Shown here: piece after piece, positions 14,041 through 20,199 of the stretch
Position numbering within the stretch: the first letter of the stretch is position 1
Layout: each line of letters begins with the position of its first letter
IMG/VR virus record: IMGVR_UViG_3300046331_000020
Location: 1 to 35,372 of that record
DNA length: 35,372 bases
Direction: 5' to 3' (one strand)
From: a virus
The notes under the pieces: model-generated
Told to the model about the DNA's origin: nothing
What the model saw: only the letters and a program-made list of their open reading frames with translations
The model's database searches: none
Program-made: the position numbers and the translations under genes

Positions 14041-15078
14041 TTAGTCGTCCAGAATGTTATGGAATCCTTTTAGTAGGAAAATCCACTGTGGTCTATTAAC
14101 GTTAAAATTTGAAATTTTCTTGGGCTTGTTCAAAGAGTATTCATGTTCACCAAGTTCTGCCAAAGTTTCTCTCATTTGCCATCTGTGAGTATTCGGGTTT
14201 CCTTTGATTTTGGTGAATGGTTCATTGGTATTAATAGCCCATCTTTGGAAATCATCAGTATTAAAGAATCCAATAATTCTTTCTGCTTTTTCTCCTCCTT
14301 GAATCATAGTCCTGTGTTCATATAATGCAGTATACCAGTCTAAGTTGAAGATACAATACCATCTAAGATCATTTACAGTTTCTAGCTTCTTGGGAGAAGC
14401 CTTAATCATCGGATCAAAAAACTCTAATAGATTAGAGTCGATATGTTTCTCGTATGACTCATAAATTGTCTTTGGTGTGCCAAGAGTATGGTGAAACATT
14501 GCAGTTTCTCCTGTGGCAAAGAAATCGTCTGTTGGTCCAAATAGTTGATTACCACACATCCCACTAACGTAAATACAATCAGTTTCCTGATACGCTAACT
14601 CATTATCTGTTGCAGTTTGTATAATGTATTTGAATTCGTGCTTTAGTCTTCTATCGAACATATCGCCAGATTCGATAATAGAATTATATGTACCATATAT
14701 CCTAACTTGTTCTGGATCATTAGCATAATGTCTTAAAAGAAGAAGGATATATGTACTGTCGATTCCACCTGACCATAGAACATAGATGGTCTTACCTGTA
14801 GCTAGAAGTTGTTTGGCTCTTTCTTCAGCTACTGCATTAAAAGATTTTGTAGAAAACCCTAATGGGATTGGATGGATATCTTTAGCTATGTTTAAGTAGT
14901 GTGGAATAGACTTAGTTCTATCATACACCATATTATGTTTGTTCAACCCAAACTTGTTGTATGTGTCGAGAAGGTTATCGCTATATTCTTCTGACAAGAA
15001 TGGTGCCATAAGATGTTTTTTACTTTGAATTATCTCTGGTACGATGTGGGTGTTATAGTATAGAATCTCTGGTCTCAT
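14041..15078 (-). CDS. PP-loop ATPase, asparagine-synthase-like
   Basis: A 345-residue nucleotide-binding enzyme. LWSGGIDSTYI at 101-111 holds the PP-loop signature SGGxDS, which binds ATP and adenylates a carboxylate or similar group. VSGMCGNQLFGP at 171-182 resembles the second conserved loop of asparagine synthase domains (SG-x-x-x-[DN]-x-LFG). There is no N-terminal Ntn glutaminase domain: the chain starts MRPEILYY with no Cys at position 2, so it would need free ammonia or another nucleophile. The product is unknown; amide formation, tRNA or peptide modification are all possible. The gene has its own GATAAATA promoter and an AAGGAT site, and is preceded by a strong terminator, so it is a separate cassette within the fibre region. 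No signal peptide, so cytosolic. Confidence 0.8.
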   Translation of the reverse strand: MRPEILYYNTHIVPEIIQSKKHLMAPFLSEEYSDNLLDTYNKFGLNKHNMVYDRTKSIPHYLNIAKDIHPIPLGFSTKSFNAVAEERAKQLLATGKTIYVLWSGGIDSTYILLLLRHYANDPEQVRIYGTYNSIIESGDMFDRRLKHEFKYIIQTATDNELAYQETDCIYVSGMCGNQLFGPTDDFFATGETAMFHHTLGTPKTIYESYEKHIDSNLLEFFDPMIKASPKKLETVNDLRWYCIFNLDWYTALYEHRTMIQGGEKAERIIGFFNTDDFQRWAINTNEPFTKIKGNPNTHRWQMRETLAELGEHEYSLNKPKKISNFNVNRPQWIFLLKGFHNILDD

Positions 15079-15093
15079 GATATCCTTAAAACG

Positions 15094-15114
15094 AAAAAGG
15101 GAGCCGAAGCTCCC
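15094..15114 (-). terminator. Rho-independent terminator after the TRAP-type gene
   Basis: Minus strand GGGAGC, TTCG tetraloop, GCTCCC (15099-15114), then TTTTT. This is a textbook intrinsic terminator located 20 bases past the solute-binding-protein stop. The late box at 15118-15125 overlaps it functionally: a start about six bases downstream would fall inside the left arm. Confidence 0.88.
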
Positions 15115-15117
15115 TAG

Positions 15118-15125
15118 TATTTATC
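15118..15125 (-). promoter_or_regulatory. T4-type late promoter box for the PP-loop gene
   Basis: GATAAATA on the minus strand, one base off the T4 late consensus, 40 bases before the PP-loop ATPase start and directly upstream of the terminator hairpin. Confidence 0.6.
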
Positions 15126-15133
15126 GCATCAAA

Positions 15134-16081
15134 TTAGTGTAGTTGAATCTTCTCAACTAGACCTGGAGTGAAGTAGTCAGCAAACTTAGCGTAAACTGGA
15201 GCAGTGACTTCTTTGAAACGTGCTTCTTGTTCAGCAGTCATCTTAACAACTTCAACACCCTCAGCTTCACATTGAGCCAAGATGTTTGGAATATCAGCAA
15301 CAGATTCACGACGCTCTTGACGAGCAGCATTGAATGCAGCAGTAGACAAGATTTCTTGAGTTTCAGCATCGAACTGCTTGAAGAAGTCTTGGTTAACGAT
15401 GATAGAAGTCAAGAACAAGCTATGTGCTGTATCATTAACAACTTTGAAAGACTTATGTTGATCTAATGGGAACACACGAACGTAAGTAGATTCACCAGCT
15501 TCAATAACTCCAGAGTCAGCTGCAGCGTTCATTTCTTCTAAAGCGATGTGCTCATTAGGAATAGCGCCAAGCAACTTGAATGTCTCAACAGCAACAGGAG
15601 AACGGCTAGTGCGAACAGTGCGACCTTGCCATGCTTCTACAGTATCAGCCTTAAAGTTAGCTGGAACAACACGGTATCCACCAGAGTAAGTGAAAGACAT
15701 AGCGTGAGTGTTAGAATTAGCAGCAACGCCAGCCAATAGATCCATACCAATAGAACCTTCTAACACTACATCAGCGTGATCGTGGTCACGGAACAGGAAT
15801 GGAAGATCTAGGGCGTGCAGGTCTTTGTTGTAATCAGCTAACCAAGTAGTGTAGATATGGCTCATTTCAATAGTGCCATTATCAACTAATTGCATCAAAG
15901 CATCTTTAGTGATTTTCTTGCCACCGTTATATTTGTTAGTATAGTCAGTTAAAGAAAGAACTTCGATGTCGAAAGCACCATTAGTTTTCTCATTAACTTC
16001 TTTAGCGAAACGCTCCGCTACTTTTAAAAATAAGCCAATAGGTTCGTGTGCGATCACCCATTTTACATGCTTAATAGTCAT
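15134..16081 (-). CDS. TRAP-type (DctP family) solute-binding protein without signal peptide
   Basis: A 315-residue protein with the whole fold of periplasmic solute-binding proteins of TRAP transporters. It has the VKWVIAHEP first strand, KVAERFAKEVNEKTNGAFDI, the LDLPFLFRDHDHA segment at 91-103 and WQGRTVRTSRSPVAVETFKL at 151-170. R157 sits where the family keeps the arginine that grips the ligand carboxylate. NQDFFKQFDAETQEIL follows near 230. Such proteins normally have an export signal; here the chain begins MTIKHVKW directly at the mature fold, with no hydrophobic N-terminus. No DctQ or DctM membrane gene is nearby. It overlaps the 103-aa gene by four bases (ATGA) after a good AGGAG site, and ends at a strong terminator. 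A virion-displayed or ligand-sequestering role is inference. Confidence 0.88.
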   Translation of the reverse strand: MTIKHVKWVIAHEPIGLFLKVAERFAKEVNEKTNGAFDIEVLSLTDYTNKYNGGKKITKDALMQLVDNGTIEMSHIYTTWLADYNKDLHALDLPFLFRDHDHADVVLEGSIGMDLLAGVAANSNTHAMSFTYSGGYRVVPANFKADTVEAWQGRTVRTSRSPVAVETFKLLGAIPNEHIALEEMNAAADSGVIEAGESTYVRVFPLDQHKSFKVVNDTAHSLFLTSIIVNQDFFKQFDAETQEILSTAAFNAARQERRESVADIPNILAQCEAEGVEVVKMTAEQEARFKEVTAPVYAKFADYFTPGLVEKIQLH

Positions 16082-16389
16082 TCGGTTTCTCCTAATTTGC
16101 TGGTATCAAATATCCAGCTTTGTGTTTGTTCTTTAAAATTCATAAATCTTTTAATCACAGTTACTCTGTTATTTATAAGATTTCTCATTGTATTTATGTC
16201 AGGAATCTCTTCCTTATTTAGGATATCAGAGACTGGAATCACCGTGTCTCTGTGTCCATATTCTTTAGTGTTCGAGTCGTATATAAAGTAATCTTTCATC
16301 GAAAACCACTCCAAGTTACCGTCCCCTTGTTCAATAGATCTTGGAAACTGTCTAATCTCGATTACATATCCATTAATAAATGAACTCAT
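16078..16389 (-). CDS. Small protein of unknown function between the radical SAM and TRAP genes
   Basis: A 103-residue protein I do not recognise. It has no cysteine, no signal peptide and no membrane segment. The N-terminal half alternates hydrophobic and polar residues (GYVIEIRQF, LEWFSMKDYFIYDS), suggesting beta strands, and the second half (TMRNLINNRVTVIKRF) looks helical. It is translationally coupled on both sides by ATGA overlaps: with the radical SAM stop at 16386-16389 and with the TRAP-type start at 16078-16081. Such coupling suggests the three products work together. Its size would suit a substrate-carrying or leader-binding adaptor for the radical SAM enzyme, but no sequence motif proves this. 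Confidence 0.75.
   Translation of the reverse strand: MSSFINGYVIEIRQFPRSIEQGDGNLEWFSMKDYFIYDSNTKEYGHRDTVIPVSDILNKEEIPDINTMRNLINNRVTVIKRFMNFKEQTQSWIFDTSKLGETE
16170..16177 (-). promoter_or_regulatory. Possible internal late promoter ahead of the TRAP-type gene
   Basis: An exact TATAAATA on the minus strand inside the 103-aa gene, about 90 bases before the TRAP-type start. Two related boxes lie just upstream (CATAAATA at 16191-16198 and CTAAATA at 16215-16221). The DNA is AT-rich, so chance matches are possible. Confidence 0.4.
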
Positions 16390-17774
16390 GCTGCTACAAT
16401 AGGAATGATTTTTTTAGGTTTTCTAACCTTCTCTGGTTTACCTTTAGTCCACCAGAAGATATCTTTACGGTCTTCTCTTAGTGGACCATCAATATACTCT
16501 GGAATGCAACCTGTCATTTCTTCGATAGCAATACAAAATTCTACAATATTGTCACTATATGCATTGTCACAAGAGGCTTCCCATAGTGGTCCAGTTAAGA
16601 ACATACAAGCACCCTTACAAATATGAATAACTGGGCAGCTTGGGCATTCTTTACGATCACTCCAGTGTGTTCCAGTATCGAGCCTTGTATTAGCTAAGTC
16701 TGAAACAGTACCTAGTTTGTGTGAAAATCCAGATGGATTGTTAGACACAGAACTAACGTTTTGGCAAGTTAAAACATTTCCGTTTAAGTCTACTGCTATG
16801 TTTTCTGCTTTGTCCATACCACATTTTTGTGGCAGAGATTCTATTCGAGTACCATCTATAATAGAGGTAACAAAACCTGAAACCTTTTGGCCAATCGTGG
16901 CAAATCTACTAACCTTACCAGTACGTAACTCGTCCAGCGCCACAGATCTAAATCGAATATCTTCTTCACCATCCAACAACGAATTGGCCATACCACCTTC
17001 GTCATAAGCATCAACAAACGTGCCTTCGCCTATAACCAAATGTTGAATATAATCTGCACCGATTTCATTAGCTACAAATTTAACAAAGAATGCTTCTATT
17101 CCCGCACGACTAATATTTTTAGAGTTAATCATAGAATTAAAACTAAACATCTTCTTTGGGGCGAGACGTTTGTATAAATCTATGATACCGATTTTAGAAT
17201 CTGGATCATCTAATGGATCTGGACCACGCACTGGTTGTCCTGGTCCATCATGGGATACTGCCACCCCGAATCCCATTGATTCTAACCAATCATTCTTTTC
17301 TTTATCTAATAAACTACCATTGGTAATTACTGACATAGACCCGTTAGGATACTTAGCCTTAATAGCTTCTGCTAATGGCTTAAATGTTTTCCAATAGACA
17401 AAAGGTTCTCCACCCCAAAACTCGAAGTGTGAACCTTTTCCTAAACCATCTTCTCCACCTTCATACCAATTGCTCATATTAGCAACAAACGGATCTACGT
17501 CATTAAGATTAGTAGAATCTGCATGTGGAACAAAACGCTGATTGCAGTAATCGCATTCAAAATTACAAGAAAGACCCAACTGAATTTTAATAGTCTTTAG
17601 GTTTTTCTTACCATGCTCAATCTTAGCTGGCTCTTTAACTTCATCTTGTATCTTAACGTTACTAAGAATTGGTGTATCATCACCCCACTTTAGTAAACTT
17701 AATGAACTATCATAAGTTATTTTTTTATGAGTACTGTCCGCTGGGCACCATGCTGTAATATCAAAAATCGCCAT
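16386..17774 (-). CDS. Radical SAM/SPASM protein- or peptide-modifying enzyme
   Basis: A 462-residue enzyme. The radical SAM cluster motif CX3CX2C is at C70, C74 and C77 (SCNFECDYC), followed by the SAM-binding FWGGEP at 119-124. The C-terminal SPASM domain is complete: C318, then G332-x4-C337, then C377-x2-C380-x5-C386-x3-C390, then C402, as in enzymes holding two auxiliary Fe4S4 clusters. Family members cross-link or oxidise side chains in peptides (RiPP maturases) or mature sulfatases. No sulfatase with a C/S-x-P-x-R site is in the window. The nearest Cys-rich candidate substrate is the 393-aa fibre encoded two genes upstream. The gene has its own promoter/terminator element and a GAGG site, and is coupled to the 103-aa gene. 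The substrate is unproven. Confidence 0.93.
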   Translation of the reverse strand: MAIFDITAWCPADSTHKKITYDSSLSLLKWGDDTPILSNVKIQDEVKEPAKIEHGKKNLKTIKIQLGLSCNFECDYCNQRFVPHADSTNLNDVDPFVANMSNWYEGGEDGLGKGSHFEFWGGEPFVYWKTFKPLAEAIKAKYPNGSMSVITNGSLLDKEKNDWLESMGFGVAVSHDGPGQPVRGPDPLDDPDSKIGIIDLYKRLAPKKMFSFNSMINSKNISRAGIEAFFVKFVANEIGADYIQHLVIGEGTFVDAYDEGGMANSLLDGEEDIRFRSVALDELRTGKVSRFATIGQKVSGFVTSIIDGTRIESLPQKCGMDKAENIAVDLNGNVLTCQNVSSVSNNPSGFSHKLGTVSDLANTRLDTGTHWSDRKECPSCPVIHICKGACMFLTGPLWEASCDNAYSDNIVEFCIAIEEMTGCIPEYIDGPLREDRKDIFWWTKGKPEKVRKPKKIIPIVAA

Positions 17775-17783
17775 ATTATCCTC

Positions 17784-17823
17784 AAAAAGATTATCCTAAC
17801 ACGTATTTATGCTCGTTAGGATA
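17784..17823 (-). terminator. Terminator-like hairpin with a late promoter in its loop
   Basis: Minus strand TATCCTAAC and GTTAGGATA (17792-17823) form a perfect nine-pair stem around a 14-base loop that contains CATAAATA. ATCTTTTT follows. It lies 10 bases past the 309-aa gene stop. Read-through RNA would form the full stem; RNA started from the loop promoter would lack the left arm. Confidence 0.7.
17804..17811 (-). promoter_or_regulatory. T4-type late promoter box for the radical SAM cassette
   Basis: CATAAATA on the minus strand, one base off the T4 late consensus, 30 bases before the radical SAM start and inside the loop of the hairpin at 17792-17823. Confidence 0.55.
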
Positions 17824-17832
17824 GCCTGAATA

Positions 17833-18762
17833 TTAAAGTGTCTTAGTGAACGTGTTTCTGTTTACCCAGTATTTGAAACCCATCTTCACTCTAACTAAAT
17901 CACCAGAATTCATACCAGTTGTTACAACTTTAAATGAACCAGAACCATTGGTTACTGGAATTTTCAATTTAGGTAAGTATCCACTGTCTTGTACCAAGTA
18001 GATAAAGTCGACTTTATCTGATGTGACATCGAAATTAACTGTCAAAATATCATCAGTTTGTGCAGAAGAAGTGACATTAATTTCTGGCATTAGTTCAAAT
18101 GTTAATCTGATAATAGGATCCAGCGGATGTTTAGTTAAATTACCAGTAAAAGTCACTGTATGCTCTGCATAGTTAGTACCAGCTAAATCAATGTTGAAGT
18201 ATTCAATTTCTGGAGTGTTATTCCAATATTCACCGTCAGCTTTAACTGCTGGTCTAATGATAACAGGAATAATATCATCTGCAGATGGGTTATCTTTAGT
18301 TACAAAGAACGCAATCACTGTAGCATCACCAAAGGTGTTAAAATCTTTTGTTGGTAATGTATTAGCATATGAGTTGATTAAATCACCCTCAAGTACAGTG
18401 TGTTCTTGTGCATCTGCAGTTTCATCGTCTGGAGTGTTTGTATTAACAACAGAATCTTTAATATACCATAAAGTTTGTCCATCAGCAGTGCTAAACATGC
18501 TGGTGTCAATTTTAAATTTATTGATTACTCTGTTCGAAGTTTCATTTTTGAAAACAACATTCAATATTGTTCCAGATAAATTCAAATCCCAATTAAATGT
18601 TACAGGAATTTCCTGAAAGTTAGTATCAGTCCACTCTGTCTCTGTTGGAAACTCTCCAGCCCACTCTACATCGGGTAGAGACTGTTGGAACAATGTGTTT
18701 GGAATAGCACCCTTTTGTGAAAGATATCTTCTTTTGTATTGTATTTTAGTTACGTATTGCAT
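17833..18762 (-). CDS. Virion-region protein of unknown function, 309 aa
   Basis: I do not recognise this 309-residue protein. It has no cysteine, no signal peptide and no repeated shaft elements. Alternating strands such as IPVTFNWDLNLSGTILNVVF, ATVIAFFVTKDN and HTVTFTGNL suggest an all-beta protein, perhaps two or three sandwich domains. The C-terminus VRVKMGFKYWVNRNTFTKTL is basic and aromatic. It starts 10 bases after the Cys-rich fibre stop behind an AAGGAT site and ends just before the terminator-like hairpin, so it shares a transcript with that fibre. Position suggests a fibre partner, chaperone or distal adhesin; none of these is shown by the sequence. Confidence 0.72.
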   Translation of the reverse strand: MQYVTKIQYKRRYLSQKGAIPNTLFQQSLPDVEWAGEFPTETEWTDTNFQEIPVTFNWDLNLSGTILNVVFKNETSNRVINKFKIDTSMFSTADGQTLWYIKDSVVNTNTPDDETADAQEHTVLEGDLINSYANTLPTKDFNTFGDATVIAFFVTKDNPSADDIIPVIIRPAVKADGEYWNNTPEIEYFNIDLAGTNYAEHTVTFTGNLTKHPLDPIIRLTFELMPEINVTSSAQTDDILTVNFDVTSDKVDFIYLVQDSGYLPKLKIPVTNGSGSFKVVTTGMNSGDLVRVKMGFKYWVNRNTFTKTL

Positions 18763-18771
18763 ATGTTATCC

Positions 18772-19953
18772 TTAGCAGTTGCAATTACAGTTAGTGCAAT
18801 TGTAGTAATGGTGATGCGGATCCATGTTGTGGTTCGTATCTAAGTGCAGACGCATATAACAGTTGATGATAACGTTACCGCAGTTACCACCAGCGGCACC
18901 AGCGCCACGCCCAATGGAGGCGTTGTTGTGGTTACCATGCTTAGTGTTATGTGGAACCCATCCACCGTAGTTACCTAAGTCGTTTGCAAACTGAGATAGG
19001 TGCCCCGGACGACCAGAGACATTACCCCATGCAACAGAAGAAGCAGAACCAGCGTTGCCACCAATGTTTGTTACTGTAACAGCACCCGTCATACCTTGTA
19101 CAGATGTGACTGGGACAGAAACTACAACAGCACCCGTCATACCTTGTACAGATGTAACGTTTGCATTGATAGTTGGATTGCCAGCAACACCATTACCATT
19201 ATCAACAGTAATACCAGCGCCTGCAACGATAGAACGTGCAGCAGCGACACCAGAAGATGTGATAGTAGTAAGACCAGCACCAACACTAGACAGTGCTGCT
19301 AAGTTAGCAGCGTAAGCCTGGACATCTGTACCAATACGAACACCCAATGTTCCACGAGCAGTGGCAGCATCAGCATCGTCAATTAATGTACGACCATATG
19401 ACGAAAGAGTAGTTGTGCTCGCAGTACCTGAACCAGTGAAGTATGGCAGAGCATCAACGCCAGAAGTAACAGAAGCTAATGCTGCTAATTCATAGTCAAA
19501 TGCTTGTACGTCTGTGCCGATAGCTAAACCAAGAGCAGTGCGAGCACCAGCAGCAGTACTAGAACCAGTACCACCGTCAGCAATAGACAAGTCTGTAATA
19601 CCAGTAATAGTACCAGAAGTGATTGCAGCAACTCCAGTATGAGTACCAGAGAAGTTGGTAGCTGTAATAACGTTAGCTGAGAAGTTACCACCAGAACGAG
19701 TTACAACGCTATTACCAGCTTGGTCTGTGGAGCTAGTGTTTAAGCCATCAAGTAAATCAGCGTCTAGCCCAGAGCCAGATCCATCGACAGTTACTAACTT
19801 AGCCAGTACATCTGCAGCAGTATAGCTAGCAGCAGTTTGGGCTAATTGAAGTTGTGTGTTTAAGTTATTAAAGTTTGCATCGACTTCAGCGTTAGTAAGA
19901 GGACTACCCTTACCAGCACGAGTCGTGATTGTTGCAGCGTTAACTGATGCCAT
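18772..19953 (-). CDS. Tail fibre protein with His/Asn/Cys-rich C-terminal tail
   Basis: A 393-residue fibre. The N-terminus ([20 protein letters not shown], then NNLN) is a common fibre start. The shaft contains [20 protein letters not shown], two copies of IGTDVQA[FY] and two copies of [31 protein letters not shown] element near 308-327 leads into the tip. The last 60 residues are unusual: [38 protein letters not shown] and a final NCTNCNCNC. All six cysteines (358, 365, 386, 389, 391, 393) lie in the last 36 residues, and each directly follows Asn. HxH pairs recall the metal-binding tip of the T4 long fibre. It follows the 75-aa coiled-coil gene and is two genes upstream of the radical SAM enzyme. 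The stop codon directly follows the final Cys codon. Confidence 0.87.
19079..19155 (-). repeat. Direct repeat in the Cys-tailed fibre gene
   Basis: A 29-base segment at 19079-19107 recurs exactly at 19127-19155, a 48-base period. It encodes two copies of [11 protein letters not shown] spaced 16 residues apart, an element common in phage fibre shafts. The near-identity at DNA level suggests a recent duplication. Confidence 0.8.
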
Positions 19954-19971: not shown

Positions 19972-20199
19972 TCAATCTTTGTTCAAGAGTTGAAGAATTA
20001 ACGATTTTATGTCTTGCAATTCGTTCTTTATGTTATTTATCTCAACTGTATGTTGAGAAATAGCGTTTTCACGCTGTTCAGCTTCTCTCATACGAACCAT
20101 ATATTCTTCGTACTCAGTTCTGTTTGTGTTTATGATAGCTCCGCTAGAGGAGTCTCTAACCAAACCATCATGTCCTATCACCTTCAAAAAATCAGTCAT
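19972..20199 (-). CDS. Small coiled-coil protein
   Basis: A 75-residue protein with a short N-terminal head (MTDFLKVIGHDGLVRDSSSG) and a long charged helix from about residue 27 to the end. The segment HTVEINNIKNELQDIKSLIL shows clear heptad spacing, which predicts a coiled coil. It has no Cys. The start overlaps the stop of the 2083-aa gene as TAATG, and the 393-aa fibre starts 19 bases after its stop. Small coiled-coil proteins in this position often help fibre trimerisation or attachment, but I cannot assign one family. A possible late box for the fibre gene lies inside it. Confidence 0.72.
   Translation of the reverse strand: MTDFLKVIGHDGLVRDSSSGAIINTNRTEYEEYMVRMREAEQRENAISQHTVEINNIKNELQDIKSLILQLLNKD
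20034..20041 (-). promoter_or_regulatory. Possible internal late promoter ahead of the Cys-tailed fibre
   Basis: GATAAATA on the minus strand within the 75-aa gene, about 80 bases before the 393-aa fibre start. It is the same variant as the box at 15118-15125. Being inside a coding region, it is less certain. Confidence 0.35.

Follow-up and report, generated by a model that had tools for sequence, protein, structure and literature searches.

Phage fibre tips decide host range and are usually regarded as unmodified protein. In T4-like phages, arrangements of the gp37-gp38 type, with a tip adhesin or chaperone, place a variable small gene right after the fibre gene. Among the radical S-adenosylmethionine (SAM) enzymes that carry a SPASM domain, CteB is a maker of thioethers and anSME is a cysteine-oxidising maturase of a large protein. 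The radical SAM enzyme NxxcB joins Cys23 of NxxcA to Asn20, three residues earlier, in a Cys-Asn beta-thioether, and the Cys-Asp thioethers of freyrasin are likewise made by radical SAM chemistry (PMC8326336). This study analysed a viral DNA stretch of 35,372 nucleotides (IMG/VR record IMGVR_UViG_3300046331_000020, positions 1 to 35,372; hereafter the window) in which a radical SAM/SPASM enzyme is encoded two genes downstream of a fibre protein with a cysteine-rich C-terminal tail. Overall, the locus is best read, with good confidence, as a fibre-tip maturation system in which the SPASM enzyme acts on an Asn-Cys tail. A search of open-licence papers yielded no account of phage fibres being modified by radical SAM enzymes, and no NCBIfam, Pfam or PHROGs family describes the tail-enzyme pair.

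Judged by its motifs, the 462-amino-acid (aa) enzyme is a member of the SPASM subfamily of the radical SAM superfamily. The CX3CX2C motif stands at C70, C74 and C77, and the SPASM cysteines (C318-x13-G332-x4-C337 ... C377-x2-C380-x5-C386-x3-C390-x11-C402) fit the published motif CX9-15GX4C-gap-CX2CX5CX3C-gap-C (PMC6231123). The intact motif and the seven-cysteine SPASM domain reported in the initial annotation are thus borne out; together with Gly332 they are invariant in 32 aligned relatives, among which these ten cluster cysteines are the only invariant ones. The NCBIfam SPASM domain TIGR04085 scored 32.0 bits against a cut-off of 27, Pfam PF04055 scored 26.1, slightly under its cut-off of 29.5, and phrog_1802 ('radical SAM domain-containing protein') matched at 7.9e-59, while all matches to NCBIfam full-length models fell under their cut-offs. 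The AlphaFold2 (AF2) model of the enzyme is confident (predicted local distance difference test, pLDDT, 92; predicted template modelling score, pTM, 0.90), and its nearest folds are CteB (5why/5wgg, first by E-value) and then anSME (4k36-4k39), with the epimerase EpeE lower in the list. At the position of the extra Aux I cysteine of anSME, none of the 32 rows carries a cysteine, an acidic or polar residue standing there instead; the seven-cysteine pattern lacking this residue would agree with an open site like that of CteB (PMC6231123).

The candidate substrate is the 393-aa fibre two genes upstream. Its only six cysteines (358, 365, 386, 389, 391 and 393) fall within exactly the last 36 residues, as the initial annotation had noticed, and its C-terminus, encoded at about 18772-18882, reads ...NCTNCNCNC before the stop. 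Such clustering has a chance of about 6e-7, (36/393)^6, and the association of the tail across relatives is far stronger than this clustering of six cysteines. Between tail cysteines, Asn fills 323 of 449 positions (72%), followed by Ala (52) and Asp (41); the residue preceding the first tail cysteine is Asn in 109 of 122 tails, and the alternation places an Asn three residues before most tail cysteines (NxxC). Synonymous codons are mixed in 46 of the 49 distinct (NC)n tails; therefore, the repeat is kept at the protein level, and an origin as a DNA microsatellite was rejected.

The pairing of tail and enzyme was followed through loci gathered from an enzyme search (50 viral and 79 bacterial), counting distinct enzymes of at least 400 bits with at least 4.5 kb of upstream sequence and accepting an alternating Cys-X-Cys-X-Cys C-terminal tail on the same strand. 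Under this strict rule, 79 of 84 distinct enzyme relatives have such a tail just upstream. Since three more carry variant tails (a shorter NCRNCNC in L011 and L013, and a tail 35 aa from the protein end in L213), only L205 and L230 are true misses. The initial annotation had held that enzyme homologues regularly without a Cys-tailed fibre would speak against its proposal; among close relatives, 82 of 84 have a Cys-tailed protein. In control counts, an alternating Cys tail frame appeared in 2 of 141 loci when the opposite strand of that span was read, and in 2 of 103 downstream. Additionally, a reverse test drew on 34 T4-like loci with enough flank, picked by p75, a small gene serving as an anchor independent of both tail and enzyme. 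Tail and enzyme were both present in 22 and both absent in 11, with a single locus, L280, showing a tail only (Fisher 4e-8); in L280 the enzyme lies a few genes further along the record, making all 34 loci concordant. A scan of 2.9 million viral contigs for NCNCNC followed by a stop gave 106 stretches, and the enzyme was on 29 of the 50 records tested. The 21 records lacking it comprise 4 very short chance frames, 7 records that end within 1.5 kb of the tail and 10 true exceptions, which belong to three other protein families in other phages. For fibre-type tails, the pairing with the enzyme is near-obligate. In Polynucleobacter necessarius (L256), the enzyme is broken into several frames and the upstream fibre tail is eroded (NCNCDRNCGC). 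A separate observation concerns Halomonas sulfidaeris (L263), in which the enzyme lies in several broken frames and the tail and Hint start are intact.

The tail is a portable element across protein families. The Cys-tailed proteins, encoded in phage tail loci and ranging from about 80 to 1,000 aa, form 33 families at 60% mutual coverage, or 7 if linked by any local similarity. Within the T4-like loci, either the gene two upstream of the enzyme or the next small protein is Cys-tailed whenever the fibre is complete; five fibres beside the enzyme that had appeared tail-less were resolved in this way, the fibre ending in a chaperone-like coiled coil and the tail standing on the next, separate protein of 117-133 aa. 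In the Achromobacter siphophages JWF and 2-1, whose enzyme shares only 43% identity, the gene two upstream encodes a different fibre, and its tail QNCNCDCNCNCS is followed directly by a Hint domain, a domain of self-splicing type, starting CFPAGT. Because the tail can move to a separate small protein or precede a Hint domain, it is the tail, and not the fibre body, that tracks the enzyme. The JWF Hint domain matches PF05203 (Hom_end_hint) at 47.5 bits against a cut-off of 32.1 (3e-12) and begins at the cysteine right after the tail. Such tail-adjacent Hint domains are present in two or more separate clades of the enzyme; the Hint match of the Rhodospirillaceae locus L250 is under the Pfam cut-off. 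Self-cleavage of the Hint domain at its first cysteine would yield a mature protein ending in the tail, as the window fibre does already. In one phage type (L039, L048, L136, L140), three consecutive Cys-tailed proteins of 81-93 aa are followed by two p309-like genes, three 2-oxoglutarate-Fe(II) (2OG-Fe(II))-like genes and then the enzyme.

Combined, the sequence comparisons suggest that the enzyme very probably modifies the Cys tail of the fibre. Thioether cross-linking is proposed for three reasons: the fold is nearest to CteB and anSME, the SPASM domain has seven cysteines, and Cys-Asn and Cys-Asp joins are known, for which the NC repeat offers such Asn and Asp positions. Thioether formation is the likeliest chemistry, with about an even chance of being right against other radical chemistry. 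In the proposed sequence of events, the enzyme would bind the tail once the fibre protein has been translated, the radical SAM cluster would cleave SAM, and hydrogen would be abstracted from the residues between the cysteines (mostly Asn, then Ala and Asp). The cysteine sulfurs would then form thioether bonds and turn the very C-terminus of the fibre into a compact, cross-linked knob; where a Hint domain follows, its self-cleavage would leave the tail exposed at the end of the mature protein. The p309 protein encoded between fibre and enzyme probably presents or caps the tail, and further hydroxylation of it may come from the 2OG-Fe(II) oxygenases of other loci. Once finished, the tip would gain stiffness and resistance to proteases, or would form the contact with the host receptor; a role of the modified tail in adsorption or tip stability appears somewhat likely.

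Several observations weigh against this proposal. The AF2 model of the enzyme shows three strands at residues 3-30 with no helices after them, and no complete leader-binding RRE domain is predicted. Among divergent enzymes (200-400 bits), a tail was nearby in only 9 of 21, and some chromosomal enzyme subclades adjoin ABC transporters instead. Many of the loci are related, so the pairing counts do not represent independent events. Finally, NCNCNC endings also occur in three protein families whose records carry no such enzyme, and the tail can therefore exist without the enzyme.

A different chemistry on the same tail, either epimerisation of alternate residues in a PoyD-like 1,3 pattern or an anSME-like oxidation of cysteine to formylglycine, is rather unlikely, although it is the kind of reaction that the period-two alternation of the tail, PoyD's pattern (PMC8326336), and the rank of anSME as second-best fold group, with EpeE further down, would bring to mind. 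CteB, however, is first by E-value; no cysteine outside the ten of the clusters is invariant, so that no spare epimerase-type catalytic cysteine is seen; and for formylglycine formation, the enzyme lacks the extra Aux I cysteine and the tails lack the sulfatase CxPxR motif. The richness of the window tail in Cys and His (HHH) suits metal binding, and the three enzyme-less NCNCNC families could be taken to mean that the tail is a metal or iron-sulfur ligand or a disulfide clasp, with the enzyme directed at another partner such as p309. This seems improbable, as the histidines are not conserved in other tails and p309 is both highly variable (21-54% identity to the window protein) and more dispensable, being unrecognisable in 26 of 92 distinct tail-positive enzyme loci in which tail and enzyme still stand together.

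The initial annotation had grouped the enzyme with the 103-aa, TRAP and PP-loop genes and proposed that this SPASM island modifies or metal-loads the fibre tip. The link between enzyme and tail has been upheld by the pairing counts given above, with the modification itself argued from them, whereas the wider island has not. Joint action of the four genes on the fibre would agree with the translational coupling in the window, where the 103-aa and TRAP frames each overlap the upstream neighbour by 4 bases, and with the movement of the three genes as a block that recurs near the enzyme. Yet the cassette is missing from many tail-positive enzyme loci (L010, L012, L016, L017, L026, L028, L030-L032), where the tail is not visibly changed, its position shifts between loci, and TRAP or PP-loop genes are found in 18 records of 15-250 kb that lack the enzyme, some near other transport-type genes. 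For these reasons the cassette is regarded as an independent, optional and movable accessory, and its place in the core system was rejected; an island acting jointly on the fibre is accordingly a quite improbable account. Least credible is that the enzyme is only a co-inherited passenger in a conserved fibre locus. Many loci do come from T4-like phages that are related and share one gene order, but the pairing holds across siphophages, T4-like phages, prophages, 33 tail-protein families and several gene orders, also when the tail changes protein, and the p75-anchored presence/absence test largely refutes the idea. Chance or pure synteny as the cause of the pairing was rejected on the strand controls, the 33 tail families and the same p75-anchored test.

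The window represents part of a T4-like phage genome, with genes for terminase, sheath stabiliser, head closure and baseplate wedge, in agreement with the structural and fibre surroundings described initially, and every open frame reported there checked out. All genes described lie on the minus strand, where a 2083-aa structural protein is followed downstream by p75, the fibre, p309, the enzyme, the 103-aa, TRAP/DctP-type and PP-loop genes and more fibre genes (Table 1). The closest cultured and prophage relatives of the tail-enzyme gene pair belong to the Burkholderiales.

Table 1. Genes of the fibre-tail and enzyme locus, numbered along the window, with the basis of each assignment.
Feature	Positions	Strand	Basis
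p75, small conserved gene just upstream of the fibre; neutral anchor with no claimed mechanistic part	19972..20199	-	presence/absence test
Cys-tailed fibre protein, 393 aa; proposed substrate	18772..19953	-	Cys positions; PHROG tail-fibre matches; tail in T4-like relatives
p309, beta-rich with Ig-like C-terminal region; proposed tip or assembly partner	17833..18762	-	AF2 model; Foldseek; locus counts
Radical SAM/SPASM enzyme, 462 aa; proposed fibre-tail maturase	16386..17774	-	invariant CX3CX2C and 7-Cys SPASM; phrog_1802; AF2; fold matches
103-aa protein; optional cassette, outside the core system; start overlaps enzyme stop	16078..16389	-	locus comparison
TRAP/DctP-type binding protein without signal peptide; optional cassette, outside the core system	15134..16081	-	PF03480
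PP-loop ATP pyrophosphatase-like protein (SGGxDS); optional cassette, outside the core system	14041..15078	-	invariant motif; weak PHROG matches

The p309 gene (and, in other loci, 2OG-Fe(II) oxygenases) is a more constant partner of the pair than the TRAP, PP-loop and 103-aa genes. A p309-like gene lies between tail and enzyme in 66 of the 92 distinct tail-positive enzyme loci, and genes for 2OG-Fe(II)-oxygenase-like proteins lie there in 42 of the 92, the window itself having none. The AF2 model of p309 (pLDDT 85) gave strong Foldseek matches to uncharacterised phage proteins and weak ones to immunoglobulin (Ig)-domain proteins; its PDB matches are only weak and Ig-like. In two T4-like loci (L279 10738-12242 and L280 10553-12063), the stretch between the Cys-tail gene and the enzyme holds a pair of fatty-acid-desaturase genes (PF00487) along with two or three acetyltransferase-like genes.

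Within the cassette, the TRAP protein falls in the DctP fold family (PF03480 6.8e-44, 150.7 bits against a cut-off of 23.4); it starts at the mature N-terminus, 10 of 10 relatives have no signal peptide, and no DctQM membrane partner genes were present in the window region examined. The PP-loop protein has an invariant SGGxDS motif and weak PHROG matches to PAPS reductase/QueC-like families; searches of NCBIfam, Pfam and PHROG gave no family over cut-off for this protein and no family match for the 103-aa protein. A phage TRAP/DctP family without signal peptide (the window protein; L432, L448, L470, L445), related to phrog_31178, is often accompanied by PP-loop proteins, and some of its records also encode further binding proteins of transport type that do have signal peptides.

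The loci L230, L236, L255, L240, L242, L244 and L249 hold divergent chromosomal enzyme relatives and have no Cys tail in the vicinity. L230 and L236 are beside ABC-transporter genes, and L240 and L236 are near very large proteins; the neighbours of L230, L236 and L240 suggest a separate cellular enzyme branch acting on exported proteins. The NCNCNC-ending proteins of enzyme-less records are of structural type, with 202-203 aa in L066, L088, L103, L116, L128 and L149, about 185 aa in L063, L098, L109 and L145, and 184 aa in L092; in L098, a 2230-aa protein with 62 cysteines adjoins the NCNCNC-ending gene.

If the proposed modification occurs, a portable Cys tag served by a dedicated radical SAM maturase and retained in unrelated phages would make receptor binding or tip stability partly a matter of chemistry hidden to sequence and structure prediction. 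The world of peptide maturases would be tied to virion assembly, and phrog_1802 and some fibre-linked 2OG-Fe(II) oxygenases would gain a function. More tentatively, with the balance tipping slightly against it, this could be a widespread and undescribed class of virion maturation in which phages of many kinds bear a portable Asn-Cys tag at the extreme, receptor-facing C-terminus of the fibre, radical SAM chemistry cross-links this tag, and Hint self-cleavage and 2OG-Fe(II) hydroxylation assist; the fibre tip would then in effect be a ribosomally made, chemically tailored peptide.

Compared with described systems, the p309 gene resembles the gp37-gp38 arrangement in being a small, variable gene that follows the fibre gene directly, and it differs in its Ig-like C-terminal region, its conservation across unrelated phages and the accompanying enzyme and Cys tail. 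QhpD, too, is a radical SAM enzyme whose target is a protein subunit, and its model TIGR03906 matches the N-terminal part of the enzyme at 5.2e-13, under the cut-off; QhpD, however, cross-links a subunit of a bacterial enzyme (quinohemoprotein amine dehydrogenase) and has no relation to fibre tails. With anSME the enzyme shares the modification of cysteine in a large protein by a SPASM radical SAM enzyme, if the tail is its substrate, and the JWF homologue is annotated under the anSME name. In contrast to anSME, seven and not eight auxiliary-cluster cysteines are present, the CxPxR motif is absent, no sulfatase partner was found in the loci inspected, and the target would be a repeat and not one residue. 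The sacti- and ranthipeptide SPASM maturases (CteB, NxxcB, PapB) have the CX3CX2C motif, the seven-cysteine SPASM domain, the nearest fold (CteB) and a Cys-rich substrate with Asn or Asp neighbours in common with the present system, and the PapB model is the best NCBIfam match of the enzyme (5.1e-14, far under its cut-off). Unlike in those systems, the genes lie in phage tail loci, the enzyme has no complete RRE domain, and a virion-type protein, at its C-terminus, takes the place of the small leader-core peptide as candidate substrate. The new aspect of the locus is thus a virion protein as the proposed substrate in an otherwise known scheme of maturase and Cys-rich substrate.

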